Positions 12,768-64,000 of a stretch of 64,000 bases of DNA are shown one piece after another; the first letter of the stretch is position 1, and each line of letters opens with the position of its first letter. The stretch is from positions 1,586,501 through 1,650,500 of the forward strand of contig NZ_CP017940.1 in the NCBI RefSeq assembly GCF_002764115.1. The letters run 5' to 3'. Made by a program: the position numbers and the translations under genes. The stretch comes from Phyllobacterium zundukense. GTDB lineage: Bacteria > Pseudomonadota > Alphaproteobacteria > Rhizobiales > Rhizobiaceae. The notes beneath the pieces were generated by a model, which saw nothing but the letters and a program-made list of their open reading frames with translations, did not search any database and was not told where the DNA came from.

Positions 12768-12784
12768 ATCGCATCCGTTCCGCG

Positions 12785-13214: not shown

Positions 13215-13281
13215 ACCTTTGCGAGTAGGCACCTCAAAGCGATGCCGATTATTTCCCGATCAAGGGGAGCAACTAAAACGC

Positions 13282-15363: not shown

Positions 15364-15494
15364 AGTCTTATGCGGCCAATGCTACAGGAATTACGAATCA
15401 CCGATGATCTTTGCACGCTTCGGTATGAAACGCGATGGGAGTTCGTGATCTGTTCCGGGTTTCACCACAGAACTATGCGATGAGTCCCCACGTT

Positions 15495-47263: not shown

Positions 47264-47276
47264 GCGGTCCGGGCGG

Positions 47277-48236: not shown

Positions 48237-48245
48237 GGCCGCGCC

Positions 48246-49070
48246 ATGCTGAATGTTAAGAATATTCCCATCAGTGCGTGGATCGGTCTGATTATTACAG
48301 CGGTCTTTCTATTCGCGGCGATTTTTGCTCCCTGGGTCGCACCATACTCTGTGGGTGAAACGGTTGGTGACGTCTGGGAACCCATGTCGGCAAAATACTT
48401 GCTCGGTACGGATAATCTCGGGCGTGACCTGCTCTCCAGAATGATTTATGGGGCGCGGATCACGATTTTCATTGCGGCGATGGCCACGGCACTCTCCTTC
48501 ATTCTGGGCTCCGTGCTTGGCTTTGCCGCAGCGGTGATCGGTGGCTGGCTCGATCAGCTGATGTCGCGCTTTGTAGATTTGATCATGGCCATTCCGACGC
48601 TGATCTTTGCGCTGGTGGTTCTTTCGGTGCTTCCGGCCAATGTCATCACACTGATACTGGTCATGGGCTTGCTGGATGCTACCCGCGTCTACCGCCTGGC
48701 ACGGGCGGTCGCCGTCGATATCAACGTTATGGATTTCGTCGAGGCGGCAAAGCTGCGCGGCGAGGGCAAGATTTGGATCATTTTCCGCGAGATCCTTCCC
48801 AACGCACTGACTCCGCTGATCGCCGAACTCGGCCTGAGGTTCATCTTCGCCGTGCTTTTCCTTTCGGCACTCTCGTTTCTCGGTCTTGGTGTGCAGCCGC
48901 CGGACGCGGACTGGGGTGGCATGGTCAAGGAAAACAAGGAAGGCATCGTCTTTGGCATCCCGGCAGCGCTCATTCCCGCTGCGGCAATTGCCGTCCTCGC
49001 GATTTCCGTCAATCTGGTCGCTGACTGGATACTGAACCGTACCACCAGCCTAAAGGGAGGGCGCGGCTAA
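48246..49070 (+). CDS. Peptide-type ABC transporter permease (DppC-like)
   Basis: A 274-residue permease with six helices; it contains LLGTDNLGRDLLSRMIYGARI, the hallmark of DppC/OppC proteins, and the EAA-type loop VDFVEAAKLRGEGKIWIIFREIL-like segment (about residues 160-182). The C-terminal GLGVQPPDADWGGMVKE is equally diagnostic. It lies 9 bp after DppB, and its stop overlaps the start of the fused ATPase gene. Confidence 0.9.
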   Translation: MLNVKNIPISAWIGLIITAVFLFAAIFAPWVAPYSVGETVGDVWEPMSAKYLLGTDNLGRDLLSRMIYGARITIFIAAMATALSFILGSVLGFAAAVIGGWLDQLMSRFVDLIMAIPTLIFALVVLSVLPANVITLILVMGLLDATRVYRLARAVAVDINVMDFVEAAKLRGEGKIWIIFREILPNALTPLIAELGLRFIFAVLFLSALSFLGLGVQPPDADWGGMVKENKEGIVFGIPAALIPAAAIAVLAISVNLVADWILNRTTSLKGGRG

Positions 49071-50728
49071 TGGCCAAACGTCCAGTAGACAGATCCGGCC
49101 TTCTGCTCGACATTCGCAATTTGCGCATCGAGGCAACCAGCTATCCGCCGGGGGAACCGCCGCGCAACGTTGTCATCGTGGATAATGTGTCGGTCAAGCT
49201 CGAACGCGGCAAGGTTCTCGGTCTGATCGGCGAATCCGGCGCAGGCAAATCGACTATCGGTCTTTCGAGCATGTGTTACGGGCGCGGCGGCGTGCGTATC
49301 ACCGGCGGCGAAGTCGTGCTCAATGGGCGCGATCTCCTCAAAGGCGGCCCTGGCCTTCTGCGTCAGGTTCGTGGACGGGAAGTGTGCTATGTCGCTCAAT
49401 CCGCGGCGGCAGCGTTCAACCCGGCGCGCAAGCTCATGGACCAGGTGATCGAAGCAGCGCTGCTGCACAAGATCTGTACAAAGGCGCAAGCGGAGAAACG
49501 CGCGGTTGGCCTGTTCAAGAAACTGGGTTTGCCTAACCCGGATACGTTCGGTGAGCGCTATCCGCACCAGGTGTCGGGCGGGCAGTTGCAGCGCGCCATG
49601 ACGGCCATGGCGCTATGTTCCGAACCGGACTTGATCGTGTTTGACGAGCCAACGACGGCGCTGGACGTGACGACGCAAATTGACGTGCTCGCCTCGATCA
49701 AGGATGCAATTCGCGATACCAATGTTGCAGCGCTCTATATTACCCACGACCTCGCGGTCGTTGCACAGGTGGCGGACGACATTATCGTGCTGCGACACGG
49801 CAAGCAGGTCGAATATGGTCACACGCACCAGATCATCAAGGCGCCACGGCAGGAATACACCAACCAACTCGTCTCGGTGCATCATATTCCGCATGTGGAG
49901 AACAACCCGGCTGATGCGCCGATCCTTTCCGTGAAGAATGTCACGGCGGCGTATGGCGGTGGCCTGGTTAGGGTGCTGAAGAATGTCTCGGTGGATATTC
50001 ACCTCGGCCAGACGCTGGCTGTCGTTGGAGAGTCCGGTTCGGGCAAATCTACGTTGGCCCGCGCGATTACCGGGCTGCTGCCGCCGATGGAGGGGGCGAT
50101 CACGTTTGACGGGCGGACATTGTCGCCGCGCCTTGCCAACCGTACGCGCAATGATCTGCGCGAATTGCAGATGATCTACCAGATGGCCGACACGGCGATG
50201 AACCCGCGCCAGACGATCGGCACCATCATTGGCCGGCCGCTGGAGTTCTATTTTGGCATGAGGGGAAAGCAGCGCGACGCCCGCATCGCCGAACTTCTTG
50301 AGAAGATCGAAATGGGTAAGGGGTTTGCCGACCGTTACCCCGCCGAACTTTCGGGTGGGCAGAAGCAGCGTGTCTGCATCGCGCGCGCTTTGGCCGCGAA
50401 GCCCAAACTCATCATTTGCGACGAGGTAACCAGTGCGCTCGATCCGCTCGTGGCGGACGGCATTCTCAAACTGCTTCTGGATTTGCAGAAGGATGAGAAT
50501 GTGGCGTACCTCTTTATCACCCATGATCTCGCTACTGTAAAATCAATCGCAGACTCCATTGCGGTCATGTATCGCGGTGAAGTGGTGCGCTACGGCCCGA
50601 AGTCGGAAGTACTGAAGCCGCCATTCGACGATTACACGGACTTGCTACTGTCGTCCGTGCCGGAAATGGAACTTGGCTGGCTGGAGGAAACCATGAAGAA
50701 CCGGCGCATGGCCAGCGCCGGGAACTAG
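49070..50728 (+). CDS. Fused dual-ATPase of a peptide-type ABC transporter (DppD-DppF-like)
   Basis: A 552-residue protein with two complete ABC ATPase domains. First domain: Walker A GESGAGKST (about residue 55), signature VSGGQLQRA, Walker B LIVFDEPTTALD. Second domain: Walker A GESGSGKST (about residue 325), signature LSGGQKQRV, Walker B LIICDEVTSALD. Note the DEV in the second Walker B where DEP is commoner. Fusions of this type (as in GsiA and YejF) energise Dpp/Opp-like importers. Start shares one base with the DppC stop. Its stop overlaps the convergent hydrolase gene stop at the CTAG palindrome. Confidence 0.9.
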   Translation: MAKRPVDRSGLLLDIRNLRIEATSYPPGEPPRNVVIVDNVSVKLERGKVLGLIGESGAGKSTIGLSSMCYGRGGVRITGGEVVLNGRDLLKGGPGLLRQVRGREVCYVAQSAAAAFNPARKLMDQVIEAALLHKICTKAQAEKRAVGLFKKLGLPNPDTFGERYPHQVSGGQLQRAMTAMALCSEPDLIVFDEPTTALDVTTQIDVLASIKDAIRDTNVAALYITHDLAVVAQVADDIIVLRHGKQVEYGHTHQIIKAPRQEYTNQLVSVHHIPHVENNPADAPILSVKNVTAAYGGGLVRVLKNVSVDIHLGQTLAVVGESGSGKSTLARAITGLLPPMEGAITFDGRTLSPRLANRTRNDLRELQMIYQMADTAMNPRQTIGTIIGRPLEFYFGMRGKQRDARIAELLEKIEMGKGFADRYPAELSGGQKQRVCIARALAAKPKLIICDEVTSALDPLVADGILKLLLDLQKDENVAYLFITHDLATVKSIADSIAVMYRGEVVRYGPKSEVLKPPFDDYTDLLLSSVPEMELGWLEETMKNRRMASAGN

Positions 50729-51675
50729 AGCTGGCCCGGCCAGCGGCCCTGGCCGAGCAGATGCACCGCCGCCGTGATGCGCCGGAAGCTTGCACGGGCG
50801 CGCTCGACGCTATGACGAGCGCGCAGATAGGCATGTACGAGACCCGGCTCGTTGTTCCAGATCGCCTTGCCGCCCGCTGCCAGAATCTTGTCCCGATAGT
50901 GCCGGCCATCGTCCGACAATGGATCGCATTCGGCGGAGATGATGATGGTGTCCGGCAATCCGCTGAAATCCGTGGCATTTAGGGGGGCAAAACGCGGGTC
51001 GGTCGACCAATTGAATCCGCCACCCCTGAGGTTGGCGTAGTAGAGCGTATCACGCGTCGTCAGCATCGGCGCTTCCGCATGGGTCAGGTAAGAACCCTGA
51101 TCGGCTGCTCCGCCGAGGCCGGGATAAATGAGAACCTGACCAATTGGGGCACGATCGTGAAGGCGCACATGATGCGAAACGGCAGCTGCGAGATTACCCC
51201 CGGCGCTATCGCCACAGAGAACAAGGGGCAGATCAGAGGTTGATGCCACATATTCGAAAGCTGCAAGACAATCCCTGAAGGCGGCCGGATGCAAATGTTC
51301 GGGCGCGAGCCTGTAATCTACCGAGATGATCCGAAACCCGGTCGCCTCGCAGAACTCTGCGCAAACGTCGTCATGGCTATCGAGCCCACCGACGACGAAT
51401 CCTCCGCCGTGGAAATAAAGGCAGACAGCTTCCGGATCGCTGTCGCGCTTTTCGTAGATACGGATCGGTATCTTACGGTCACGTGCATCGATAAAACGAT
51501 CAGCCGACGACACCGATTCCGGATAGCCGGCGAAGAATGCCCGGCACATGGTGTTGTAAACGTCGCGCTGCTGCTCCACCGAAAGATTGACCGCATCGGG
51601 CGGATAGAAACTGTTGGTACGTTCTATGAACGCCCAAGTTTCCTCGTCGATTAGAACCGAATAGTCTGTCGTCAT
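50725..51675 (-). CDS. HSL-type alpha/beta hydrolase, candidate acylcarnitine esterase (HocS-like role)
   Basis: A 316-residue esterase of the hormone-sensitive-lipase group. Oxyanion motif YFHGGGFVVGG (about residue 90), nucleophile GDSAGG (Ser about 160), acid in SAECDPLSDDG and His in PGLVHAYL complete the triad. It is the last gene of the carnitine operon, overlapping the caiD stop. In Pseudomonas a hydrolase in the carnitine operon (HocS) releases carnitine from short-chain O-acylcarnitines; position and family make the same role likely here. That is inference, as HSL-type enzymes accept many esters. Confidence 0.72.
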   Translation of the reverse strand: MTTDYSVLIDEETWAFIERTNSFYPPDAVNLSVEQQRDVYNTMCRAFFAGYPESVSSADRFIDARDRKIPIRIYEKRDSDPEAVCLYFHGGGFVVGGLDSHDDVCAEFCEATGFRIISVDYRLAPEHLHPAAFRDCLAAFEYVASTSDLPLVLCGDSAGGNLAAAVSHHVRLHDRAPIGQVLIYPGLGGAADQGSYLTHAEAPMLTTRDTLYYANLRGGGFNWSTDPRFAPLNATDFSGLPDTIIISAECDPLSDDGRHYRDKILAAGGKAIWNNEPGLVHAYLRARHSVERARASFRRITAAVHLLGQGRWPGQL

Positions 51676-52454
51676 TTTCCCTTCCACACCGGGTCACGCT
51701 TTTCCGCGAAGGCTCTGAAGCCTTCCTGCCCATCTTCAGAGGCGTAGAGCGTATCCACAGTACGGAATTTGCGCTTGGTAATCCAGTTCATGGCGTCCTG
51801 GAAACCCATGCTTTCGGCCTCGCGGGCCACTTCCTTGATAGCGGCGAAAACCAATGGCGGGCCACTTTCCAGCATGCGCGCGATCTCCCAGACCCGCTCC
51901 ATCAGCTTGTCTTTTGGAAGCACCTCGTTGACCAGGCCCCAGCGGTGCGCCTCGGCAACGTCCATCCAGCGCCCGGTCAGGAGCAAGTCCATGGCGACAT
52001 GATAAGGGATGCGCTTGGGCAGCTTTACCGTTGCCGCATCGGCGAGGGTTCCGGCGCGGATTTCCGGCAGGGCGAAGCTCGAATGATCGGAGGCATAGAT
52101 GAGATCGCAGGAGAGGGCGAGTTCGAATCCGCCGCCGACCGCCATGCCATTGACCGCAGCAATTACCGGCTTGTTGAGATCCCGCAGTTCCTGCAAGCCG
52201 CCAAAGCCGCCGACGCCGTAGTCGCCGTCGACCGCGTCGCCACCTGCGGCCGCCTTGAGGTCCCAGCCGGCGCAGAAGAACTTGTCGCCTTCGGTCTGGA
52301 CGATGGCGACACGCAACTCGGGATCGTCGCGGAATTTCCTGAATGTCTCTCCCATCAGCCGGCTTGTCATCAGGTCGATGGCATTGGCCTTCGGCCGATC
52401 CAGCGTGACTTCGAGAATACCGCCTTCGCGCCGCGTCCTGATAACCTCAGTCAT
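51672..52454 (-). CDS. caiD: Crotonobetainyl-CoA hydratase (carnitinyl-CoA dehydratase)
   Basis: A 260-residue enoyl-CoA hydratase/isomerase-family protein closely resembling E. coli CaiD in motifs recalled from memory: EVTLDRPKANAID, FFCAGWDLKAAA, DLNKPVIAAVNGMAVGGGFELAL and the C-terminal AEKRDPVWKGK. The oxyanion-hole Gly and second active-site region are intact. It hydrates crotonobetainyl-CoA to carnitinyl-CoA. Start overlaps the stop of the acyl-CoA synthetase gene (52451-52454). E. coli cai genes run an anaerobic reduction; here the neighbours imply the oxidative direction toward carnitine. Confidence 0.85.
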   Translation of the reverse strand: MTEVIRTRREGGILEVTLDRPKANAIDLMTSRLMGETFRKFRDDPELRVAIVQTEGDKFFCAGWDLKAAAGGDAVDGDYGVGGFGGLQELRDLNKPVIAAVNGMAVGGGFELALSCDLIYASDHSSFALPEIRAGTLADAATVKLPKRIPYHVAMDLLLTGRWMDVAEAHRWGLVNEVLPKDKLMERVWEIARMLESGPPLVFAAIKEVAREAESMGFQDAMNWITKRKFRTVDTLYASEDGQEGFRAFAEKRDPVWKGK

Positions 52455-54529
52455 TTCAGCTCTCCCTTTGTCACCAGCAGCGCATCGGCAATCCAAGCGC
52501 CTTGTCCCACGCCACAGACCAGCAGCGGGTTGATATCGAGTTCGGCAATCCTGCCGGTATTGGCCACAGCGAATGCGGCGATGCCCATGATCGCGTCCAG
52601 CGCAGCATCAAGATCGGCCTTCTGCTTGCCACGGTAGCCGTCGAGAAGCGGGAACATACGCAGCGCGCGCAGCGCGGCCTCGGTGTCCTCACGGCTCGAA
52701 GGCAGGAGCATCGTCGCGGTATCCTGCAACAATTCCACGAGAACGCCGCCTGTGCCAAGTGTCATGACCGGGCCAAACTGCGGGTCGTCGACAATGCCGA
52801 CGATGAGTTCGGCAATCGCACCTGTTACCATCCGCTCTACATACAAACCGGAACCAAGACCGACTAGATCATCAGCAGCGGATTTGATGGCGGTAGCATC
52901 TTTCAGGTTGAGGCGTACTGCGTTGTGCTCGGATTTGTGTGCAATACCCAGCGCCTTGAGCGCGACCGGATAGCCAAGGTGTTCGGCAATCGCGACTGCC
53001 TCATCGGAAGTTGTGCAGCGGCGCCCATCGGGAACGGGCAGACCAGCCTTTTTGAGAATGGCCTTGGCTTTCGCTTCGTCGGGTGTATTTGCATCGGCGG
53101 TTGGAGCCTGTTCGGCTGCCGCGACCGCAGAACCTAATGGCTTCCTCCATGCCTTGCCAATGACGGCCGCTGCTTCTGCTGCATCGAAAGCTTCGGTAAT
53201 ACCGCAGAGCGGCGCAATGCCTTTTTCCATTAGGCCGGCCATGTATTCTTCCGGGATATTCTCCGGTATCGACGCGACAATGGCCCCTTTGGCCTTGTTG
53301 GTTTTCAACGCACTTTCAAAGCCACGAACAGTTGACCACCAATCGACATCCGAGCAACGGTCCTTGCGTGGGAAATCCAGAACAAGATAGCTGAGCGCGA
53401 AGCCGCCCGACACCATGGCAGTGAAAGTCTCGGTCAGCGCCGGCTCGTTGTTCCAGATGAAGGTGTGGTAATCCAGCGGGTTGGCGACGGCGACCAGCGG
53501 TCCGAGCGTAGACTTCACGCGGGCGCGGTGTTCAGGTGTCAGGGCTGGGAAGGTAACGTCTCGGCCCTCGGCGCTGTCGGCCATAACCGAAGCTTCGCCA
53601 CCGGAACAGCTCATCGAACACAGCGTGTTTCCGTCGAGCGGCCCGTGCACATGCAAAAGCTTCAACGTCTCGAGAAAAGAGGCGATTGAGTTGACGCGCG
53701 CAATGCCGAGGCGTCTCAGGAACGCGTCGGATGCAGCATCCGATCCCGCTAGCGACGCCGTATGCGAAACGGTCGCCGCCCGGGCCTGTGCCGAACGCCC
53801 GACCTTCATGGCAACGACAGGCTTGCCGAGTTCGCGGGCGCGTTTCGCCAAAGCCTCGAACTTCGCGGCTGATTGAAAGGCCTCGATGTGAAGCCCCAAT
53901 GCGGTCACACGCTCGTCCTCGAGCAGCGCGATGGCCATGTCCGGCAGGCCGGTTTGCGCCTGATTGCCGGCGGTCATCACATGGGCAATGGGCAAACCAC
54001 GCGTCTGCATCGTCATGTTGATGGCAATGTTGGAAGATTGCGTGATGATGGCGACGCCGCGCTCATCTGGGCCAAGGCGACGTCCGCCATGCTGGTCGGG
54101 CCAGAGGAGGGCGCCATCGCAATAGTTGATCAGGCCGTAGCAGTTCGGTCCGATGATAGGCATGTCGCCAGCGGCTTCCACAAGCTCTTCCTGCAGGCGC
54201 GCGCCATCCGCGTCATCGGCATCGGCCTCCAGAAAGCCGGAGGCGTAGCATACGGCAACACCAGCGCCAGCTTCACGCAGTTCCCGAACAATGCCGAGCG
54301 TCAGAAAGCGATTGACGCCGACAAAGGCCGCATCGGGACTGCCGGGCAGATCGGCGACGGAGCGGTAAACCTTCAGGCCCAGTATTTCGTCATGTTTGGG
54401 ATGCACCGGCCAGATTTCGCCGGCAAAACCCATTTTCTGGGATTGCTTGATGACTTCGGTGGCCTGAAGACCACCGAAGACAGCTATGGTTTTCGGTCGT
54501 AGCAGACGATCGAGTTTATGCGATGCCAT
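52451..54529 (-). CDS. ADP-forming acyl-CoA synthetase (acetate-CoA ligase-like)
   Basis: A 692-residue NDP-forming acyl-CoA synthetase with the two halves fused: CoA-binding domain (RPKTIAVFGGLQATEV), succinyl-CoA-ligase-like domains (IIGPNCYGLINY; the His-containing ATVSHTASLAGSD loop) and a C-terminal ATP-grasp domain (GYPVALKALGIAHKSEHNAVRLN; GPVMTLGTGGVLVELL). ATG 54529 follows GGAG; the GTG at 54544 is less likely. In a cluster with CaiD and an acyl-CoA dehydrogenase, it is the only enzyme able to make the CoA thioester of gamma-butyrobetaine, crotonobetaine or carnitine. No CaiB or CaiC is present. Confidence 0.82.
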   Translation of the reverse strand: MASHKLDRLLRPKTIAVFGGLQATEVIKQSQKMGFAGEIWPVHPKHDEILGLKVYRSVADLPGSPDAAFVGVNRFLTLGIVRELREAGAGVAVCYASGFLEADADDADGARLQEELVEAAGDMPIIGPNCYGLINYCDGALLWPDQHGGRRLGPDERGVAIITQSSNIAINMTMQTRGLPIAHVMTAGNQAQTGLPDMAIALLEDERVTALGLHIEAFQSAAKFEALAKRARELGKPVVAMKVGRSAQARAATVSHTASLAGSDAASDAFLRRLGIARVNSIASFLETLKLLHVHGPLDGNTLCSMSCSGGEASVMADSAEGRDVTFPALTPEHRARVKSTLGPLVAVANPLDYHTFIWNNEPALTETFTAMVSGGFALSYLVLDFPRKDRCSDVDWWSTVRGFESALKTNKAKGAIVASIPENIPEEYMAGLMEKGIAPLCGITEAFDAAEAAAVIGKAWRKPLGSAVAAAEQAPTADANTPDEAKAKAILKKAGLPVPDGRRCTTSDEAVAIAEHLGYPVALKALGIAHKSEHNAVRLNLKDATAIKSAADDLVGLGSGLYVERMVTGAIAELIVGIVDDPQFGPVMTLGTGGVLVELLQDTATMLLPSSREDTEAALRALRMFPLLDGYRGKQKADLDAALDAIMGIAAFAVANTGRIAELDINPLLVCGVGQGAWIADALLVTKGELK

Positions 54530-54540
54530 CGAATGCTCCG

Positions 54541-55704
54541 TCACGCGCCGTGCGGGCGGAGCAGGGCGCGGGAAATAATGTGCCGCTGGATTTCGGATGT
54601 GCCTTCCCAGATGCGCTCGACACGGGCGTCGCGCCAGATGCGCTCGAGCGGCAGATCGTCCATCAGCCCCATGCCGCCGTGAATCTGGATCGCCTCGTCG
54701 GCGACGAAGGCCAGCATCTCGGTCGCCTTGAGCTTGGCCATCGCCATGTCCTGATCAGTCACCGTGCCCTGGTCGAATTTCCAGCCCGCCTCGAAGGTAA
54801 GCAGATCCGCGGCTTTCAATTCCGTCGCCATATCCGCCAGTTTGAAGGATACGCCCTGGAATTTGCCGATCTGCTGGCCGAACTGCTGGCGGTGGGCCGC
54901 ATATTCGATGGCGTGGCCAAGCGCCCGCTCGGCGCGGCCAAGGCATGTCGCTGCCACCTGCAGGCGTGTTGCGCCGAGCCAGGTGTTGGCGACTTCGAAA
55001 CCCTTGTGCACTTCGCCAAGGATCGCATCCTGCGGCAGACGGCAATCGTCGAACTCGATGATGGCATTGGTATAGCCGCGATGCGAGACGTTGCGATAAC
55101 CTTCGCGAATGGTCATGCCGGGATGGCCTTTATCGACGAAGAAGGCAGTGATCTTCTTTTTCTTGCCGCGCGGCGTGTCCTCTTCGCCGGAGGCGACGAA
55201 GAGGATGACGAAATCCGCTTCAAGCGCGTGGCTGATGAAGTGCTTCGTACCGTTGACGACCCAGTCGCCACCCTTTTCGACGGCTGTCGCCTTCATGCCG
55301 CGCAGGTCGGAACCGGCACCCGGTTCCGTCATGGCCAGGCAATCGGACTTTTCACCGCGGATGCACGGAAAAAGGTACTTTTCCTTCTGCGCATCGGTAC
55401 CCGCAAGCAAGATGTTCGACGGACGACCGACACAGGTCCAGTGCAGCGCATAATTGGCGCGGCCCAGCTCCTTTTCATAGAGCAGCCATGTCACCGTATC
55501 GAGACCTGCTCCGCCTACGGATTCCGGCATGTTTGCTGCATAAAGCCCAGCCTCCATAGCCTTCTGCTTCAGTTCCTCGGCAAGTTCCTTGCGCAAGATA
55601 CCCGTGCGCTCAACTTCCGCTTCGTGCGGGTAGAGTTCGTTCTCGACAAAGGCACGGGTCGTATCGACGATCAGCCTTTGCTCCTCCGAAAGACCGAATT
55701 CCAT
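54541..55704 (-). CDS. Acyl-CoA dehydrogenase, probable gamma-butyrobetainyl-CoA dehydrogenase
   Basis: A 387-residue flavoprotein of the acyl-CoA dehydrogenase family. It has EFGLSEEQRLIVDTTRAF, ALTEPGAGSD-type LAMTEPGAGSDLRG, VVNGTKHFISHALEADFVI, and FGQQIGKFQGVSFKLADM. The C-terminal QIHGGMGLMDDLPLERIWRD region holds the active-site and FAD contacts. By place in the operon it should oxidise gamma-butyrobetainyl-CoA to crotonobetainyl-CoA, feeding CaiD. ATG 55704 is 4 bp after the carnitine dehydrogenase stop. Upstream in-frame sequence is the shadow of that gene. Confidence 0.83.
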   Translation of the reverse strand: MEFGLSEEQRLIVDTTRAFVENELYPHEAEVERTGILRKELAEELKQKAMEAGLYAANMPESVGGAGLDTVTWLLYEKELGRANYALHWTCVGRPSNILLAGTDAQKEKYLFPCIRGEKSDCLAMTEPGAGSDLRGMKATAVEKGGDWVVNGTKHFISHALEADFVILFVASGEEDTPRGKKKKITAFFVDKGHPGMTIREGYRNVSHRGYTNAIIEFDDCRLPQDAILGEVHKGFEVANTWLGATRLQVAATCLGRAERALGHAIEYAAHRQQFGQQIGKFQGVSFKLADMATELKAADLLTFEAGWKFDQGTVTDQDMAMAKLKATEMLAFVADEAIQIHGGMGLMDDLPLERIWRDARVERIWEGTSEIQRHIISRALLRPHGA

Positions 55705-55708
55705 GGCG

Positions 55709-56773
55709 TTAGCCTTTCTTTTTCTTGGGCTTGCTGGTTTTTGCCTTCTCAGCAGCTTTGGATATGGCTGGCTTCTGTGCCAGCTTCGACAGGCGCTTGG
55801 TGTAGTCCTTGTAGAGCGCGCCAGCGCCCCAGCCCTTGCCCTTGTTCTGGCGGGAGAGGGCTTCCATAATGGCAACCAGATTGTCATCGCGGATGCGCTC
55901 GAGTTCACGAATGGACAGGCCATGCGCCTGTTCGTCGGACTGGTTGGCGATCTTGTCGACCAATTCTTCGGTTAGTTCCGGCACGTCCATCAGCTTGGTC
56001 CAGGGCCAAGACAGGCACGGGCCGAACTGGGCAATGAAGTGACGCATGCCTGCTTCGCCACCGGCGACGCGATAGACCTGGAACATGCCCATTTGCGCCC
56101 AGCGAATGCCGAACGAATAGCGCATGATGTCGTCGAGTTCTTCGACGGTGGTGATGTCGTCCTTGATCAGCCAAAGCGCCTCGCGCCAGACCGCTTCAAG
56201 CAGACGGTCACCGACAAAGGCTTCGATTTCCTTGCGGATCACCACTGGCTTCATGCCGATTGAGGCATAGAGTTCGCGGGCTTTTTCAAGAGCTTCCGGC
56301 GATGTCAGTTTGCCACCGACGATTTCGACCAGCGGCAACAGATAGACAGGGTTATAAGGATGGCCGACGACCAGCCGCTCCGGATGTTTCATGGCTGTCT
56401 GCATGTCGGAGGGCAGGATGCCGGATGTCGATGAACCGATGATCGCGTCGACCGCGGCGTGCCTGTCGATTTCCGCCAGAACCTTGTGCTTCAGGTCGAG
56501 CCGTTCCGGCACGCTTTCCTGGATGAAGTCGGCGCCGGCAACGGCCTCTTGAATAGACTTGGCGAAGGTCAGCTTGCCTTCCTTAGGCAATCCATCCGGC
56601 AGCATGGTCTTATAGGCGCGGCGAGAATTCTTCATCACCTCGCTGACTTTGCGCTCTGCTTCCGGATCAGGATCGAAGATCGAGACATCTACGCCGTTGA
56701 GAAGAAGGCGCGCTACCCAACCCGCACCGATAACACCGCCGCCGACAGCTGCGGCCTTGCGAATACCTGCCAT
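55709..56773 (-). CDS. cdhA: L-carnitine dehydrogenase
   Basis: A 354-residue NAD-dependent 3-hydroxyacyl-CoA-dehydrogenase-family protein. It starts with the Rossmann motif AAVGGGVIGAGWVARLLLNG and has IFDPDPEAE (NAD-specific acidic residue), IIGSSTSGILPSDMQ, HPYNPVYLLPLVEIV and the helical C-terminal dimerisation domain. Rhizobial L-carnitine dehydrogenases have this wording. It oxidises carnitine to 3-dehydrocarnitine. The C-terminus is a Lys-rich tail (KKKKG). In several species a thioesterase domain is fused to this enzyme; here the tail stops and the thioesterase is a separate gene at 58830. Four base pairs after cdhC. Confidence 0.88.
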   Translation of the reverse strand: MAGIRKAAAVGGGVIGAGWVARLLLNGVDVSIFDPDPEAERKVSEVMKNSRRAYKTMLPDGLPKEGKLTFAKSIQEAVAGADFIQESVPERLDLKHKVLAEIDRHAAVDAIIGSSTSGILPSDMQTAMKHPERLVVGHPYNPVYLLPLVEIVGGKLTSPEALEKARELYASIGMKPVVIRKEIEAFVGDRLLEAVWREALWLIKDDITTVEELDDIMRYSFGIRWAQMGMFQVYRVAGGEAGMRHFIAQFGPCLSWPWTKLMDVPELTEELVDKIANQSDEQAHGLSIRELERIRDDNLVAIMEALSRQNKGKGWGAGALYKDYTKRLSKLAQKPAISKAAEKAKTSKPKKKKG

Positions 56774-56777
56774 AATC

Positions 56778-57683
56778 TCACCAGCCCTTTGTCAATTTCA
56801 TGCGCTCGCGGACTTCTTGGGGCCCGAGAATTTTTGCACCCATGCCTTCGGCGACTTTCACCGCCCGCTCAACCAATGGGCCGTTTGTGGCGAGAACGCC
56901 CTTGTCGAGCCAGATATTGTCTTCGAGACCGACACGGATATTGCCGCCCGCCAGCATTGCCATGGCTGCATAGGGCATCTGGTTGCGGCCGATCGAGAAA
57001 GCCGAGAACGTCCAGTTGGATGGCAGGTTGTTGGTTAGCGCCAGCAGTGTGCCGATATCGTCTGGCGCACCCCAGGGAATACCCATGCAGAGTTGCACCA
57101 TGACCGGATCGTCCAGCAGTTTCTGGTCGTAGAGCCACTTGGCAAGAAGCAGATGGCCTGTGTCGAAGATTTCGACTTCCGGACGCACGCCCAGCGCCTG
57201 GATCTGAGCCGCCATTGCTTTCAGCATCGCCGGCGTGTTGGTCATGACATAGTCACCTTCGCCGAAGTTCATCGTGCCGCAGTCGAGCGTGCAGATTTCC
57301 GGGCGAAGTTTTGCAACATGCTCCAGACGTTCGGTGGCGCCGGCCATATCCGTGCCATTGGGCGAGGGCGGCATTGGCTGTTCAACGCTGCCGAGGGTAA
57401 GGTCGCCGCCCATGCCGGCGGTGAGGTTCAGGACCATGTCAACGCCGGACGCCTTGATGTGCTCGACGACTTCCGTATAGAGCGCGATATCGCGCGAACC
57501 CTTGCCGGTTTTTGGATCGCGGACGTGAATATGCGCGATGGCGGCGCCGGCATTTGCGGCAGCGATACATTCATCGGCGATCTGGCGTGGAGTGACCGGA
57601 ACCTTGTCCGAACGGCTCGTCGTGTCGCCCGCGCCTGTCACTGCGCAGGTGATGAATACTTCGCGATTTGGGGTAAGTCCCAT
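56778..57683 (-). CDS. cdhC: 3-dehydrocarnitine:acetyl-CoA trimethylamine-acetyl transferase-type BKACE enzyme
   Basis: A 301-residue beta-keto acid cleavage enzyme (DUF849). Visible: [37 protein letters not shown] (metal-binding His-X-His), [30 protein letters not shown] and [11 protein letters not shown]. In the Pseudomonas carnitine operon CdhC reacts 3-dehydrocarnitine with acetyl-CoA to give betainyl-CoA and acetoacetate. ATG 57683 is preceded by GGGAG. It is the first gene of a six-gene minus-strand operon and divergent from the regulator gene, 80 bp apart. Confidence 0.87.
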
Positions 57684-57763
57684 AGCTGTGCTCCCATTAT
57701 TTTGGTTGTCGTGATCATGCCCCGATTGCCAAGAGATGCTTTGCAATATACGAATTGAAATTG
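57684..57763. promoter_or_regulatory. Divergent promoter region cdhC/cdhR
   Basis: An 80-bp gap separates the two divergent genes and must hold both promoters and the CdhR site. I see an AT-rich run TGCAATATACGAATTGAAATTG at about 57740-57761, but no clear repeat that could be called the operator. Confidence 0.5.
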
Positions 57764-58744
57764 ATGAATAGCGAAACATCGCCACTCTTTTTGCCGAACA
57801 CCAAGACGCTGGACGTGACCGTTCTCGTCTTCAGTGGCGCTTCGCTTATGTGTGTGGCCTCGACAATCGACCCGATGCGCGCCGCGAATCGCGTTTCGGG
57901 TAGCAATCTCTTCAAATGGCGGATCGTCTCCCTCGATGGAGAATCGACAATGACCACTTGTGGCTTGCCGATCGCGGTTTCCGGCTCATTCAATACATCA
58001 GAAAAGGGCGATATGCTTTTGGTTATCGGTGGTTTTGGTACGTCCGATATTGCGCGTACTACCTTCACTGCCAATCTCCGCCGGGCCGTTCACAATTACC
58101 AGATGATTGGCGGTATCGAGGCCGGTTCCTGGCTGCTTGGCCGGGCCGGGTTGCTATCGGGGCGCAAGGCGACCACCCACTGGGAAGACATGGAGGAGTT
58201 CACGGCCGAGTTCCCGGATGCGGATATCCGGCCGGATCGCTACGTCATCGACGGCCCGGTGTTCACCAGCGGCGGGGCTTCGCCGACCTTCGATCTGATG
58301 CTCCATCTGATCCGTTCGCGCTATGGCATGTCGGTGGCGCTCGATGTGGCAAGCGTATTCATCTATGACGAGGCGCATGCGTCAAATGATGCGCAACCAC
58401 TGGTTTCGCTCGGACGGCTGGACGATGTGCACCCGAAACTGGCGGGGGCCATCCGGTTGATGGAAAGCCATATAGAGTCGCCGCTAACCATCGGTGCAAT
58501 TGCGAAGCGGTGCGGTCTGAGCGCCCGAAGTCTGGAAAAGATATTCTCAAAAGCTGTCGGCGAGGGGCCGGGGCGCTATTATCTGCGCCTGCGGCTGAAG
58601 ATGGCGCGGCGGCTGATCACCGATACGAAATCGCCGCTTGCTGATATCGCCGCGCGAACCGGGTTTTCATCCGCAGCGGCCTTCACCCGGACCTTCCGGA
58701 GCTTCGAGGGCAAGCCGCCCAGTGCTTTCCGCCCTGTTCATTGA
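57764..58744 (+). CDS. cdhR: GATase1-like AraC-family regulator of carnitine catabolism
   Basis: A 326-residue regulator with an N-terminal DJ-1/PfpI-like domain (about residues 20-190) and a C-terminal AraC HTH ([21 protein letters not shown], then [20 protein letters not shown]). At the nucleophile elbow [16 protein letters not shown] a Glu stands where peptidase-type members have Cys, as expected for ligand-sensing relatives such as CdhR and GbdR. ATG 57764 is chosen; a TTG nine bases earlier is possible. It lies between the two parts of the carnitine pathway (cdhCA... on one side, cdhB on the other), so control of both is likely. Confidence 0.85.
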
Positions 58745-58829
58745 GAGTCGCTTTTGACAAAGCAGCACTATGCTCCTTCATGTTTCAACCCGCGATCAAA
58801 TAACCGCGCCGCCCAGCTAGGAGCCCAGA

Positions 58830-59321
58830 ATGTCAGCCGAAAATTTACAAGGTCAACTGCACCGATCCGCGCCGATTGCCATGGAAAAGGAGTGGATCGA
58901 CTATAATGGTCATCTCAACATGGCCTATTACAACGTTGTGTTCGATCGGGGTGGTGACGAGTTCCTTGCAGAACTCGGCTTTGGGCCGAAATATGCCGCC
59001 GCGCGCAAACTGACAATCTACACCGCTGAGGTGCATATCTGTTACGTGCAGGAAATTCATCTCGACCATATCGTTACTGTCACCAGTCAGTTGATCGATT
59101 TCGATGCCAAACGCCTGCATACCTATAACGAGATCGTGCACAAGGATGGCTGGATCGCTGCCACGGCGGAGGTCCTGTCACTCCACGTTGACATGAGCGG
59201 ACCCAAGGTCGTGCCGTTTCCCGGTGATATTCTGCCAACGCTTGAGTTCTACAAGCAAGCCCATTCCAGGCTTCCCATGCCTGCACGTGTTGGCCGGTCA
59301 ATAGGTATCAAGAAGAAGTAG
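58830..59321 (+). CDS. cdhB: Betainyl-CoA thioesterase (hotdog fold)
   Basis: A 163-residue 4HBT-type thioesterase: EWIDYNGHLNMAYYNVVFDRG contains the catalytic Asp region and hotdog helix, and VHICYVQEIHLDHIVTVTSQ the beta strands. Size and motif match CdhB, which hydrolyses betainyl-CoA to glycine betaine and CoA. It follows cdhR by 85 bp on the same strand. Its last 14 bases overlap the convergent LysR gene. Other acyl-CoA substrates are possible; the assignment rests mainly on context. Confidence 0.78.
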   Translation: MSAENLQGQLHRSAPIAMEKEWIDYNGHLNMAYYNVVFDRGGDEFLAELGFGPKYAAARKLTIYTAEVHICYVQEIHLDHIVTVTSQLIDFDAKRLHTYNEIVHKDGWIAATAEVLSLHVDMSGPKVVPFPGDILPTLEFYKQAHSRLPMPARVGRSIGIKKK

Positions 59322-60216
59322 TTGCGCCGAACTGTTCGACGAGCCAGCGTTCGAATTGCCGGATTCGGGCTTCGCCCACGCGTTCCTTCCGGCAGATCAT
59401 GTACCATGCGCCGGGCTGGGGGACTTTGAGCGGGAAGGGTGCAACGAGCCGCCCCGCTTTCAGATCGTCGGCCACCAGGAAGTCGGGAGCGACGGCCAGT
59501 CCCTGGCCATCGAGGGCTGATTGCAGGGCAGCAAGATAAGTATCGAACTTTAGCGTTACCGCCTGGCCTGTATCGGCCAATCCCGCAGCCTCCAGCCATG
59601 TGCCCCAATCTTCCGGCGCCGTGTATAGCGCGAGGCGCGGGACCTTGTTCAGGGCTTTTACCCCGGAACCACCATCCATACGCGCAGCCACCTGCGGGCT
59701 GCAAACGGGACACATCTCTGCCTTGACCAGCAGCCGGTAATGCAGGTTCATCCGCTCCGGTCGCGTTGTGTGGATGATGCCGATGTCTGAACTGTCGATA
59801 TTGAGTTCCCAATCGAGCTGGCTGGTGCCGATGCGAATGGCGAGATTGGGATTGAACTTGCGAAAATCGGTCAGGCGCGGAATGAGCCAGCGAATGGCGA
59901 AGGTTGCATAGGTTTCAAGCGCCAAATCGTCCGTCGTGCCGATCCGATTGATCAATGCCGTACCGCGCGCGATCTTTTCGAAGGCATCGCGCATATAGGG
60001 GTAGTAGAGAGTGCCCGCATCTGTCAGCGATACGCCGCGCGGCAGACGCTCGAACAGTTTGACGCCCAGGATCGTTTCAAGCTCGGCAATGCGATGGCTG
60101 ATGGCGGATTGCGTCACGCCGAGTTCGTCGCCAGCGAGCCGGAAACTCAACAGCCGCGCCGATGCCTCGAATGCCCGCAACGAGCCGAGCGGCGGTATTC
60201 GAGGCTTTGACATCAT
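59308..60216 (-). CDS. LysR-family regulator (GcvA-like)
   Basis: A 302-residue regulator. HTH: SLRAFEASARLLSFRLAGDELGVTQ then SAISHRIAELE (residues about 12-47). Effector domain features: NLAIRIGTSQLDWELN, LALYTAPEDWGTWL and AWYMICRKE. It is divergent from the Rieske oxygenase gene; the shared 150-bp gap contains the palindrome TGAAT-ATA-ATTCA. It is related in style to the LysR at 30507. The likely target is the oxygenase/dehydrogenase operon. Confidence 0.83.
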   Translation of the reverse strand: MMSKPRIPPLGSLRAFEASARLLSFRLAGDELGVTQSAISHRIAELETILGVKLFERLPRGVSLTDAGTLYYPYMRDAFEKIARGTALINRIGTTDDLALETYATFAIRWLIPRLTDFRKFNPNLAIRIGTSQLDWELNIDSSDIGIIHTTRPERMNLHYRLLVKAEMCPVCSPQVAARMDGGSGVKALNKVPRLALYTAPEDWGTWLEAAGLADTGQAVTLKFDTYLAALQSALDGQGLAVAPDFLVADDLKAGRLVAPFPLKVPQPGAWYMICRKERVGEARIRQFERWLVEQFGATTSS

Positions 60217-60243
60217 GGCTTCAGAACCTCGAAAAAGGATGCG

Positions 60244-60256
60244 TGAATATAATTCA
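60244..60256. promoter_or_regulatory. Palindrome TGAAT-N3-ATTCA, candidate LysR site
   Basis: A perfect 5-3-5 palindrome TGAATATAATTCA, of the T-N11-A LysR type, 28 bp from the LysR start and 112 bp before the Rieske gene. A TATAAT on the + strand lies inside it, so binding would affect initiation directly. The same half-sites with N3 occur at 30461-30473. Confidence 0.55.
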
Positions 60257-60367
60257 TGTCTTTATGAGTAACGATCGCTTGAACGGCGCGCAATGCGGAA
60301 TCATTCTAATCTGCGACGCGTCTTAGAAACAATAAGCGTCCGGGAACAATCTTTTTCGGAGAATGAC

Positions 60368-61600
60368 ATGGGTGCAGAACAGGCATTTGCAGAAATTGCA
60401 CCGGCTCTGGACACGATCGATCAATTAATTGCGGAGCATCGGCCAGGGCATGGGCTGGTCCGTGCCTTCTACATGGATCCGGATGTTTATGCCCGCGATA
60501 TGGAGCGGGTGTTCCGCCGGCATTGGCACTGCATCGGTCATGCGAGCATCATTCCCGATGCCGGGGATTTCGAACTGTTCAAGATCGACTCCGAAGCGGT
60601 TATCGTTTCGCGCAACGAGGACGGGTCGATCCATGCTTTCCTCAATGTCTGCCGCCATCGCGGCGCAGAAGTCTGCACCAAGCCGAAAGGCAATGCGCGC
60701 TTCTTCGTCTGCCCCTATCATGCCTGGACCTATGCCAATGATGGCAGCCTGCGTGCAGCGCGGTTGATGCCCAAGGATTTCGACCGCAGTGCGCATGGCC
60801 TGAAGAAACTGCATGTGCGCGTGGCGGAAGGGCTGATCTTCATCTGCTTTGCCGACGAACCGCTGGATTTCTCGATCATCGAGCAGTCGCTTCGCACCAC
60901 CTGCGGTCAATATGGCTGGGCGGACGCCAAGGTTGCGCACCGCGAAACCTATCCCGTCGACGCCAACTGGAAGCTTGCCGTCGAAAACTACGTGGAATGC
61001 TATCATTGCGGCCCGGCCCATCCGGAATATTCCCAGACACATGCGCTGGAACAGCCCGCCGAAAAGATCGTCGAACTCAATGCGCGCATGGAGCAGCGCA
61101 CCTGCGCTCTTGGTATTGATATCGCCACGGGCGACAATTGGCAGAATTCCGCGCATGGCCAGGAGGCGATCCACACCTTCCGCTATGCACTCTATGACGG
61201 CGTATCGAGCGGCAGCGAGGATGGCTCGCCGGTCGGCCCGTTGATGGGAAGGTTTTCGGAGTTCGATGGCGGCGTTACTTCCATTCACCTGGGCGGTACG
61301 AGTTTCCTCGTCTGCTACCCGGACCACGGCATGATCTACCGCTTCATTCCAAAAACCGTCGATACCTGCGAGATGGAACTGATCTGGCTGGTGCGCGGCG
61401 ATGCGGAAGAGGGCAAGGATTATGACCTCAAAAAGCTGACCTGGCTGTGGAAGGTGACAACTGCGGAAGACAAGACGATCATCGAACACACGGCGCGCGG
61501 TGTTCGCTCGCACTACTTTGTGCCGGGACCGATTGCGCCGATGGAATATAACGAATTGCGGTACATCCAGTGGTACCTCGATGAAATCGGACGGGCCTGA
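60368..61600 (+). CDS. Rieske non-heme iron oxygenase alpha subunit, glycine-betaine-monooxygenase (GbcA)-like
   Basis: A 410-residue oxygenase. ATG 60368 follows GGAG; the frame extends upstream without support. The Rieske 2Fe-2S site is CRHRGAEVC...CPYHAW (C-X-H, 17 residues, C-X2-H, about residues 95-118). The mononuclear iron site is in ENYVECYHCGPAHPEY. GbcA-type proteins hydroxylate a methyl of glycine betaine, releasing formaldehyde and leaving dimethylglycine. The downstream dimethylglycine-dehydrogenase-like gene and upstream carnitine genes support that substrate; stachydrine or carnitine itself are alternatives. The reductase partner (GbcB) is not seen in the window. Confidence 0.78.
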   Translation: MGAEQAFAEIAPALDTIDQLIAEHRPGHGLVRAFYMDPDVYARDMERVFRRHWHCIGHASIIPDAGDFELFKIDSEAVIVSRNEDGSIHAFLNVCRHRGAEVCTKPKGNARFFVCPYHAWTYANDGSLRAARLMPKDFDRSAHGLKKLHVRVAEGLIFICFADEPLDFSIIEQSLRTTCGQYGWADAKVAHRETYPVDANWKLAVENYVECYHCGPAHPEYSQTHALEQPAEKIVELNARMEQRTCALGIDIATGDNWQNSAHGQEAIHTFRYALYDGVSSGSEDGSPVGPLMGRFSEFDGGVTSIHLGGTSFLVCYPDHGMIYRFIPKTVDTCEMELIWLVRGDAEEGKDYDLKKLTWLWKVTTAEDKTIIEHTARGVRSHYFVPGPIAPMEYNELRYIQWYLDEIGRA

Positions 61601-61644
61601 TCCTGCCAGTCCTCACTGCAGCATGAGACCACGGGAGACCTTGT

Positions 61645-64000
61645 ATGTCTGATTTTCCAACGTCGGCGCGCGTCGTCATTATCGGTGGCGGAGCGGTCGG
61701 CGTCTCCTCGCTTTATCACCTCGCCAAGGCAGGCTGGACCGATTGCGTATTGCTTGAAAAGAACGAGCTGACGTCGGGCTCGACATGGCATGCGGCGGGC
61801 AATGTGCCAACCTTTTCGGCCTCGTGGTCAGTGATGAACATGCAGCGCTACTCGGCCGAGCTCTATCGTGGTCTGGCTGCCGAGGTTGACTACCCGATGA
61901 ATTATCATGTCACCGGCTCGCTGCGGCTCGCGCATACGAAGGAGCGCATGCGCGAGTTCCAGCGGGTCAAGAGCATGGGCCGCTATCAGGGCATGGATAT
62001 TGATGTGCTGGGCGTTGATGAAATCAATGGCCGCTATCCGTTCATTGCGACGCACGAGCTTGAAGGCGCCCTCTACGATCCTAACGATGGCGATATAGAT
62101 CCGGCGCAATTGACGCAGGCCCTCGCCAAGGGCGCGCGCGACATGGGCGCGAAGATCATACGCTTCTGTCCGGTCACCGGCGCACGCCGCGAGAACGATG
62201 AGTGGGTGATCTCCACTCCACAGGGCGACATACGTTGCGAATATGTGGTCAATGCAGCCGGTTACCGGGCACAGGAGATCGGCAAGCTGTTCGGTCGCGA
62301 TGTGCCGATGATGGTTATGAGCCATCAATATCTGCTGTTCGACGAAATTCCCGAAATTGCCGGCTGGTCTCGCGAAAACGGCCACAAACTGCCGCTGCTA
62401 CGCGACGTGGATTCCTCCTATTACCTGCGGCAGGAAAAGAACGGCATGAATCTAGGGCCATATGAGAGCAATTGCCGCGCGCATTGGGCGACCGCCGATG
62501 ATCCAATGCCGGATGATTTCTCCTTCCAGCTTTTCCCGGACGATCTAGAGCGGCTGGAGTGGTATCTGAACGACGCCATTGCGCGGGTTCCCATTCTCGG
62601 GACCGCAGGCTTGTCGAAGATCATCAACGGTCCAATTCCCTATGCCCCGGACGGCAATCCACTGATCGGTCCGATGCCGGGTGTGCCCAATGCATTCGAA
62701 GCCTGTGTCTTCACGTTCGGCATTGCGCAGGCGGGCGGTGCAGGCAAGGTTCTGGCCGAATGGGTGACAGAAGGCGCGACAGAGTGGGACATGTGGTCGT
62801 GCGATCCGCGCCGTTTCACCGCTTTTGCCGATCCTGAATATTGCGTTGCCAAGGGGCTCGAAGTCTACGGGCACGAATATGCCATCCACTTCCCGCGCCA
62901 TACGTGGCCGGCGGGCCGCAACAAGAAGCTCTCACCGGTCCATGATCGCATTTCCAAGTTGGGTGCGCAGTTCGGCGCCTACAATGGCTGGGAGCGGGCA
63001 AACTGGTACGCGCAGCCGGGCGACGATGTTTCGGAGGAATCAACGCAAACCTTCCTGCGTGATGGACCGTGGCAGCAGCGTATCCGCGAAGAGTGCCATG
63101 CCGTGCGCGACGCCGTCGGCATTCTCGACTTGCCGGGTTTCTCGCGCTTCAAGGTCAGCGGCGAGGGCGCCCGCGAATGGCTGTCGACGCTGATCACCGG
63201 TATCGTGCCGAAGCCGGGACGGATCGGCCTTGGTTATTTCTCCGATGACAAGGGCCGGGTAGTCACCGAAATGTCTATCATGGCGATCGACGAGAATGTG
63301 TTCTTCCTGATCACCGCGGGCGTTGCCGAATGGCATGATCGCGATTGGCTGCTGAACCATCTGCCGAAGGGCAGCGCAATCAGCATCGGCAACGTCACGG
63401 AAGATTTCTCCTGCCAGATCGTCACCGGGCCGAAGGCCCGCGATCTGTTCCGGGATATCTGCGATGCGGACCTGGAGAAATCCTGGCTCTCGCACCAGAC
63501 GACGCGGATCGCCGGGCGCTATTGCCAGTTGGTGCGCGTATCCTTTGCCGGTGAGCTTGGCTGGGAGGTGCATACCAAGATCGCCGACACCGCCGCGATT
63601 TTCGATACGGTCTGGGAGGCGGGACAGAAATATGGGATCAAGCCCTTCGGCATGTTCGCATTGGATTCCCTGCGCCTTGAAAAGGGCTACCGCGCCTGGA
63701 AGGGTGATCTTTCGACCGACTACACACCGCTACAGAGTGGCCTCGAGCGCTTCATCAAGTGGGAAAAGCCGGAATTCATCGGCAAGGCCGCGCTGGAAAG
63801 CGAAAAGCAGCAAGGCGTGAAGAAACGTTTCGTCACGCTGACTGTCGATGCCGGGGATTGTGACGCGCCCTATATGTCGACGCTCTGGCATCAAGGCGAT
63901 ATCGTCGGTGAAACCACATCCGGGGGCTGGGGCCACCGCATCGACAAATCGATCGCACTTGGCATGTTGAAAACAGAACTCACCGAGCCGGGGACTGAAG
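61645..64000 (+). CDS. Dimethylglycine/sarcosine dehydrogenase-like FAD protein with GcvT domain (3' end outside window)
   Basis: 785 codons are present with no stop before the window edge, as read from the nucleotide sequence. The N-terminal DAO-type FAD domain starts VVIIGGGAVGVSSLYHLAKAG and has SGSTWHAAGN, where the His is the covalent FAD anchor in dimethylglycine dehydrogenases. The C-terminal half is a folate-binding GcvT/aminomethyltransferase domain (RDAVGILDLPGFSRFKVSG; SFAGELGWEVHT; FGMFALDSLRLEKGYRAW). It should oxidatively demethylate dimethylglycine or sarcosine, passing formaldehyde to tetrahydrofolate. It begins 44 bp after the Rieske gene, with GGGAG upstream. Confidence 0.86.
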   Translation, partial: MSDFPTSARVVIIGGGAVGVSSLYHLAKAGWTDCVLLEKNELTSGSTWHAAGNVPTFSASWSVMNMQRYSAELYRGLAAEVDYPMNYHVTGSLRLAHTKERMREFQRVKSMGRYQGMDIDVLGVDEINGRYPFIATHELEGALYDPNDGDIDPAQLTQALAKGARDMGAKIIRFCPVTGARRENDEWVISTPQGDIRCEYVVNAAGYRAQEIGKLFGRDVPMMVMSHQYLLFDEIPEIAGWSRENGHKLPLLRDVDSSYYLRQEKNGMNLGPYESNCRAHWATADDPMPDDFSFQLFPDDLERLEWYLNDAIARVPILGTAGLSKIINGPIPYAPDGNPLIGPMPGVPNAFEACVFTFGIAQAGGAGKVLAEWVTEGATEWDMWSCDPRRFTAFADPEYCVAKGLEVYGHEYAIHFPRHTWPAGRNKKLSPVHDRISKLGAQFGAYNGWERANWYAQPGDDVSEESTQTFLRDGPWQQRIREECHAVRDAVGILDLPGFSRFKVSGEGAREWLSTLITGIVPKPGRIGLGYFSDDKGRVVTEMSIMAIDENVFFLITAGVAEWHDRDWLLNHLPKGSAISIGNVTEDFSCQIVTGPKARDLFRDICDADLEKSWLSHQTTRIAGRYCQLVRVSFAGELGWEVHTKIADTAAIFDTVWEAGQKYGIKPFGMFALDSLRLEKGYRAWKGDLSTDYTPLQSGLERFIKWEKPEFIGKAALESEKQQGVKKRFVTLTVDAGDCDAPYMSTLWHQGDIVGETTSGGWGHRIDKSIALGMLKTELTEPGTE

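Follow-up and report, generated by a model that had tools for sequence, protein, structure and literature searches.

A probable gamma-butyrobetaine and carnitine gene cluster of the Sinorhizobium meliloti type in Phyllobacterium zundukense

In the cai operon of Escherichia coli (caiTABCDE), which works anaerobically and reductively, coenzyme A (CoA) activation falls to the CoA-transferase CaiB and the ligase CaiC. A different, oxidative route is reported from the rhizobium Sinorhizobium meliloti, where five enzymes are said to convert gamma-butyrobetaine to glycine betaine in seven steps, as reportedly described by Bazire et al. 2019 (J Bacteriol 201:e00772-18). Here we compare these systems with a gene cluster in a 64,000-nucleotide stretch of the Phyllobacterium zundukense genome (6.2 Mb in 6 contigs; contig NZ_CP017940.1, positions 1,586,501 to 1,650,500), hereafter the window, which was analysed from about 45 kb to its end. 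One report names S. meliloti BcoAB as the gamma-butyrobetaine:CoA ligase, which with ATP, CoA and gamma-butyrobetaine yields gamma-butyrobetainyl-CoA (PMC8364193), and a second, citing Bazire et al. 2019, ascribes to SM2011_c01638 both the oxidation of carnitine and the conversion of betainyl-CoA to glycine betaine (PMC12482172). In Pseudomonas aeruginosa, the operon caiX-cdhCAB-hocS with a divergent cdhR serves carnitine and short-chain acylcarnitines, according to a further report (PMC5806209). A first-pass annotation of the window had implied that a ligase in the place of CaiB/CaiC, and the pathway around it, were new; since both the S. meliloti ligase and the dual-function dehydrogenase are already in print, neither is, and the locus opens no new kind of system. 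No description of such a Phyllobacterium locus was found among the listed titles and abstract openings of openly licensed papers, and the cluster may be new only in being undescribed in that genus.

Taken together, the genes present, their intact motifs, their orthology and the conservation of their order make it very likely that the locus is the Phyllobacterium version of the S. meliloti-type rhizobial pathway from gamma-butyrobetaine and carnitine to glycine betaine. Six genes run head to tail on the minus strand from 57683 to 50725 and encode, in this order, a BKACE-family protein, a carnitine 3-dehydrogenase (CdhA), an acyl-CoA dehydrogenase, an ADP-forming ligase, a CaiD-type hydratase and an alpha/beta-hydrolase (Table 1). 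The gaps between BKACE and CdhA, CdhA and the acyl-CoA dehydrogenase, and the latter and the ligase are 4, 4 and 11 bases, and 4-base overlaps join the ligase to CaiD and CaiD to the hydrolase, which suggests that the block from BKACE to the hydrolase is read as a single transcript. The plus strand carries, divergently from this block, genes for a CdhR/GbdR-type regulator and a stand-alone thioesterase, which are followed by a minus-strand LysR-type regulator and then by genes for a Rieske oxygenase and a dimethylglycine dehydrogenase (DMGDH)-like protein. All of the enzymes that the first-pass annotation had placed at this one locus proved to have intact frames, and their families and motifs were confirmed. 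Neither a CaiB CoA-transferase nor a CaiC ligase occurs among the operon frames, although the remaining genome was not searched for them. The window has in common with the E. coli cai operon a CaiD-type hydratase and an acyl-CoA dehydrogenase expected to act on the same CoA esters, but in the window the activating enzyme is an ADP-forming ligase that stands beside oxidative carnitine genes.

The S. meliloti cluster, taken here from strain Ak57 (a 3.7 Mb record deposited as pSymB), holds in order a GlxA-type regulator, BKACE, a 496-residue carnitine 3-dehydrogenase with a C-terminal thioesterase (CdhAB), acyl-CoA dehydrogenase, ligase, CaiD and an ABC transporter. The enzymes, their order, the kind of divergent regulator and the transporter are common to both loci. 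Identities of the window proteins to those of Ak57 are 68% for BKACE, 67% for the dehydrogenase (to CdhAB), 66% for the acyl-CoA dehydrogenase, 75% for CaiD, 65% for the transporter binding protein, 38% for the regulator and 35% for the thioesterase (to the C-terminal part of CdhAB). Because order and identities match and the activities of BcoAB and SM2011_c01638 are in print, we read the window locus as the orthologous cluster. The two differ in that the S. meliloti dehydrogenase includes the thioesterase in its chain, whereas the window has a thioesterase gene of its own in the divergent unit, and in that the window has an added hydrolase at the operon end and the Rieske/DMGDH-like pair next door.

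Table 1. Predicted features of the P. zundukense window (positions are those of the window)
Feature	Position	Strand	Support
ABC transporter, dipeptide/opine type	45674..50728	+	SBP_bac_5, BPD_transp_1, ABC_tran (Pfam)
Transporter substrate-binding protein	45674-47263	+	SBP_bac_5
Transporter permease 1	47277-48236	+	BPD_transp_1
Transporter permease 2	48246-49070	+	matched to relatives
Transporter double ATPase	49070-50728	+	ABC_tran
Alpha/beta-hydrolase, hormone-sensitive-lipase kind; last operon gene	50725..51675	-	Abhydrolase_3, 9.4e-54
CaiD-type crotonobetainyl-CoA hydratase	51672..52454	-	top NCBIfam model, below cut-off
One-chain ADP-forming acyl-CoA ligase	52451..54529	-	CoA_binding_2, Succ_CoA_lig, ATP-grasp_5
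Acyl-CoA dehydrogenase, proposed gamma-butyrobetainyl-CoA dehydrogenase	54541..55704	-	N-terminal, middle and C-terminal acyl-CoA dehydrogenase domains
Carnitine 3-dehydrogenase (CdhA), no fused thioesterase	55709..56773	-	NF005716, above cut-off
BKACE/CdhC, proposed 3-dehydrocarnitine cleavage enzyme; first operon gene	56778..57683	-	PF05853, 3.7e-96
CdhR/GbdR-type AraC regulator with GATase-like domain	about 57764..58744	+	HTH_18, DJ-1_PfpI; NCBIfam GbdR
4HBT_2 thioesterase (CdhB-like), proposed betainyl-CoA thioesterase	58830..59321	+	C-terminal part of fused carnitine 3-dehydrogenase model
LysR-type regulator, divergent from Rieske gene	59308..60216	-	LysR_substrate, HTH_1
Rieske oxygenase, GbcA superfamily	60293..61600	+	GbcA model, below cut-off
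DMGDH-like flavoprotein with folate domain	61645..beyond 64000	+	573.9 bits to 4pab

By its domains and the presence of two histidines, the predicted ligase belongs to the ADP-forming acyl-CoA synthetase superfamily. His256 and His531 sit in histidine motifs common to solved relatives, and we take them to be the phosphorylated histidine and the beta-domain histidine of ADP-forming ligases. The protein is 61% identical to the alpha part and 48% identical to the beta part of the Ak57 ligase, and the 3.7 Mb Ak57 record gave no second match at E 0.001; judged by identity and gene place, the window ligase and the one at the corresponding S. meliloti position are orthologues. In a tree of 39 ligases, in which several distant rows are long and only 18 of the 36 inner branches have the support level set, a branch supported at 97/86 separates the 21 cluster ligases, including that of S. 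meliloti, from the others. This tree agrees with the neighbourhood counts given below but is not independent of them, as its groups were pre-set by identity and neighbourhood. The Ak57 ligase occupies two overlapping frames (L112:13395-15457; L and G numbers are our handles for loci and genomes). That the S. meliloti enzyme is naturally two-chain and the window form a fusion was considered and not upheld, for the ligase is a single frame of 714 amino acids in the Ak57 relative K101 (94.9% DNA identity) and one of 686 amino acids in Shinella. Given these single frames, and given that a neighbouring permease in the Ak57 record is likewise in two frames, the split may stem from a sequencing error or from a change in this strain.

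Whether this gene order is conserved in the Rhizobiales had been left by the first-pass annotation as a question, and the answer is that it is. In a scan of named genomes by ligase, from which we took the best 80 of 588 confirmed matches, a set skewed to near relatives, 73 of the 80 loci keep all five core enzymes. These complete loci include Phyllobacterium, Mesorhizobium, Aminobacter, Nitratireductor, Rhizobium, Shinella and two gammaproteobacterial metagenome bins, and the 7 others miss at least one core enzyme at the identity thresholds used (L190, L208 and, with the ligase no more than 2.5 kb from the start of the retrieved stretch, L196, L197, L204, L207 and L214). In a separate search of 59 genomes, the window genome included, 50 had a ligase match. 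Every one of the 19 other genomes of the genus was among these, with the gene interrupted by contig ends in G017. For part of these matches we retrieved 59 loci, not counting a downstream stretch of the window locus (L113); 24 of them (L066-L085, L102-L105) were placed by carnitine dehydrogenase, L122 spans both genes, and the rest were placed by ligase. Where the ligase was at least 43% identical (31 loci), the acyl-CoA dehydrogenase lay within 9 kb in 31 of 31 (at least 61% identity), CaiD in 30 (not L084), and carnitine dehydrogenase and BKACE in 30 each (not L086). Since 15 of these 31 loci had been placed by carnitine dehydrogenase, the fair figure for that gene and its neighbours is the one from ligase-placed loci, in which carnitine dehydrogenase and BKACE are both present in 15 of 16. 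For ligases of at most 34% identity, which occur at 15 distinct loci (L122 and L123 hold one ligase gene, counted once), no BKACE was found within 9 kb; a 26% dehydrogenase match near the distant ligase of L124 is the sole such case among them. Absence weighs less in the shorter stretches L121, L129 and L101 (13.8, 12.2 and 17.2 kb). Three loci with a ligase of 38-40% identity are mixed: L114 has all four partners in diverged form, L094 lacks BKACE on a 7-kb contig, and L115 has neither carnitine dehydrogenase nor BKACE. The core gene arrangement is not due to chance, and in Phyllobacterium, Mesorhizobium, Rhizobium, Shinella and their relatives the S. meliloti manner of using gamma-butyrobetaine is a standard gene block. 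Carnitine breakdown with no ligase half is common too, as nine of the 59 loci, all placed by the dehydrogenase, are without a ligase.

For the oxidative half, the predicted product of 55709..56773 passes the curated cut-off for carnitine 3-dehydrogenase (NF005716, 602.6 bits against a cut-off of 592) and covers model positions 2-337 of 495. The one-chain fusion of dehydrogenase and thioesterase is absent from the window, where the two are separate genes and the thioesterase, which aligns to positions 351-494 of the fused model (1.5e-30), stands behind the regulator. Among the best 80 loci, the thioesterase follows the dehydrogenase in 20 (Rhizobium, Shinella and the like), and in all 20 the two are fused as one alignment of 495-496 residues. 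It was otherwise recognised only in the five Phyllobacterium loci and in L190, and went unrecognised in the remaining 54 at the thresholds used. The fusion is a variable and not a defining trait of the cluster: Pseudomonas too has cdhA apart from cdhB, its thioesterase gene.

We infer the substrates, step directions, release step, regulation, transporter cargo and hydrolase role from this arrangement. The ligase would activate gamma-butyrobetaine, and probably crotonobetaine as well, with ATP and CoA via a phosphohistidine; the acyl-CoA dehydrogenase, which carries a WEGTSEIQ motif, would then form crotonobetainyl-CoA, and CaiD would hydrate this to L-carnitinyl-CoA. Free L-carnitine would be released most simply by the reverse ligase reaction, with recovery of ATP, and would be oxidized by the carnitine dehydrogenase to 3-dehydrocarnitine. 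BKACE would convert 3-dehydrocarnitine and acetyl-CoA to betainyl-CoA and acetoacetate, and the thioesterase would hydrolyze betainyl-CoA to glycine betaine. The CdhR-type regulator is predicted to activate the operon in response to carnitine or a related compound, and the hydrolase encoded by the last gene would probably supply carnitine from O-acylcarnitines or other esters.

Several observations weigh against this reading. No NCBIfam equivalog scores the ligase above its cut-off, and CaiD (316.9 bits against a cut-off of 500 for its top model, crotonobetainyl-CoA hydratase) and the regulator (214.2 against 480 for GbdR) also stay below theirs. The acyl-CoA dehydrogenase scores higher with acryloyl-CoA reductase (292.1) than with the CaiA model for crotonobetainyl-CoA dehydrogenase (191.7). 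That BcoAB is the S. meliloti ligase at the matching place we infer from its name, function and uniqueness. Further, the top solved relative of the ligase is an ATP-dependent dimethylsulfoniopropionate (DMSP) lyase, 7cm9, which we take to be DddX. Superfamily and domain order are common to the two, but at 215 bits 7cm9 is far more distant from the window ligase than is the S. meliloti ligase, whose two parts score 533 and 155 bits by blastp, and membership of the DMSP lyase group was rejected on that score.

The sub-threshold ligase scores and the DMSP lyase relationship do speak for an alternative in which the carnitine-to-betaine half is real while the ligase, acyl-CoA dehydrogenase and CaiD serve another betaine-like or short acid in this lineage, such as in D-carnitine salvage or in the use of a longer betaine like valerobetaine or of another onium acid, as does the existence of related clusters with other partners (L114 and L108). 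We regard this as very improbable given how closely orthology and order match S. meliloti, the well-supported group in which the ligase falls and the 75% identity of CaiD. In L114 (about 7932-15700, G052:C1), there is a second, diverged set of ligase, acyl-CoA dehydrogenase, BKACE, CdhA and CaiD (40, 52, 55, 38 and 49% identity) in a genome that also holds a standard cluster (L083), and this second set may serve another betaine. In L108, on a Sinorhizobium numidicum plasmid typed as conjugative, a 67% ligase and a 79% CaiD lie beside two acyl-CoA dehydrogenases of 26% and 24% identity, and no carnitine dehydrogenase was found in that stretch.

The two halves of the cluster are also separable, a further point against the reading of the locus as one pathway to glycine betaine. 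In one locus (L086; G034:C1:1093000-1112999), which has neither carnitine dehydrogenase nor BKACE, the activation half stands alone as regulator, acyl-CoA dehydrogenase, ligase and CaiD, with a 36% Rieske piece nearby; another (L084) is without CaiD. Conversely, in G047 (L122 and L235; G047:C5:82000-109999), one of the 15 loci with a distant ligase, BKACE, a fused carnitine dehydrogenase, a 60% acyl-CoA dehydrogenase and a 51% CaiD stand together with no ligase adjoining; the closest ligase, a paralogue of 29% identity, is about 14 kb from them. Another enzyme may do the CoA activation in this genome, where, by eye, a DnaE-like polymerase gene follows CaiD. The isolated activation half of L086, together with an S. 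meliloti paper that is said to speak of carnitine anabolic next to catabolic genes, could suggest a mainly biosynthetic role of the ligase half, whose L-carnitine would serve as an osmoprotectant or metabolite and would not feed catabolism. This seems improbable for the window, where both halves form one tight operon beside a single CdhR-type regulator, and for that reason we favour flow through to glycine betaine.

Regulator, transporter and hydrolase extend the core to different degrees. A CdhR/GbdR-type regulator is present in 74 of the best 80 loci, and an alignment of the gap between BKACE and regulator in 12 Phyllobacterium rows (11 distinct genomes, L097 being the same as L155) has a block kept beside the regulator start. 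The four transporter genes, which are also found beside the S. meliloti cluster and whose end abuts the hydrolase gene in the window, are all near the ligase in 37 of these 80 loci, and the transporter is a candidate importer of the pathway substrate. The hydrolase retains its HGGG, GDSAGG, D and H motifs. Its gene lies immediately downstream of CaiD, in the same orientation, in 44 of the 80 loci, and 12 more have it nearby on the opposite strand. Both the transporter and the hydrolase thus often belong to the gene block. Judged by its family, the hydrolase is a candidate for action on O-acylcarnitine or other esters, and since the P. aeruginosa operon ends in hocS, a gene for an acylcarnitine hydrolase, a job like that of HocS is a fair guess from gene place. 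The window further resembles P. aeruginosa in its separate cdhA, cdhB and cdhC genes, its divergent AraC/GATase-type regulator and its hydrolase in last position. However, the P. aeruginosa operon has no ligase, acyl-CoA dehydrogenase or CaiD and starts from carnitine or short-chain acylcarnitines, and uptake there is by CaiX with CbcWV, a transporter of a different kind from the dipeptide/opine-type ABC transporter of the window.

The first-pass annotation had counted the Rieske and DMGDH-like proteins with the locus. While orthology and order shared with S. meliloti bear out the route from gamma-butyrobetaine to glycine betaine, a glycine betaine demethylation arm made up of these two proteins is weakly supported. 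The window Rieske protein scores about 286.8 bits with the GbcA model (cut-off 670) and ranks only third among the GbcA matches of its genome. A better match of 520.3 bits at G000:C1:673427 has a GbcB-like neighbour (380.7 bits, cut-off 500), though neither exceeds its cut-off. No reductase-like gene was seen beside the window Rieske gene when frames of at least 180 amino acids were inspected by eye in a 16-kb stretch (L113) reaching about 15 kb past the window end, and among the listed upstream genes. Judged by its score and by the lack of an adjoining reductase partner in these frames, the window Rieske protein falls short of a GbcA assignment; the better GbcA/GbcB-like pair weakens that assignment and makes demethylation of glycine betaine by the window protein doubtful.

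The DMGDH-like protein is similar over its full length to dimethylglycine dehydrogenase 4pab and has a GSTWHAAG motif, whose histidine carries FAD in relatives. This similarity and the position of the pair speak for a tentative addition to the S. meliloti-type pathway, not a replacement for it, in which the two enzymes would take the next steps and the locus would lead from gamma-butyrobetaine down to sarcosine; we hold this to be less likely than not. Among the best 80 loci, the Rieske and DMGDH-like genes adjoin the cluster in all 5 from Phyllobacterium and in none of the 75 others (at 50% and 40% identity), and they do so in 8 of 8 further loci of the genus, three of which duplicate genomes of those 5; related Rieske and FAD proteins adjoin the cluster in Rhizobium sp. 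CC-CFT758 and L068. The limits of the Rieske protein as a GbcA, its presence in just 5 of the 80 loci and its own LysR gene count against such an extension. An extended salvage island is a more speculative and rather unlikely arrangement, in which the hydrolase would free carnitine or gamma-butyrobetaine from esters, the core would convert these to glycine betaine, and the Rieske protein and two DMGDH-like proteins would demethylate another quaternary amine from the same mixture of nutrients; if true, the betaine-eating block would be broader than the published pathway. A second DMGDH-like gene, 35% identical to the first, lies just past the window end (L113:1087-3534) and is followed on the other strand by genes that by eye are ornithine-aminotransferase-like and arginase-like. 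In S. meliloti Ak57, a DMGDH-like relative of 77% DNA identity (L106:7980-14500) lies about 23 kb past the cluster transporter, not far from a trimethylamine-methyltransferase-family gene.

Finally, the block shows small, testable variations: the separate thioesterase, the added hydrolase and, in many Mesorhizobium loci, an HD-oxygenase-like protein. The last is an HD-domain protein of about 209 amino acids encoded between BKACE and carnitine dehydrogenase (for instance, L076:8652-9281) in 30 of the best 80 loci, mostly Mesorhizobium. An HD-oxygenase-like protein at this position would be new to carnitine metabolism; its matches to solved structures are weak and fall on the HD-type oxygenases PhnZ (5.9e-5) and TmpB (0.02).

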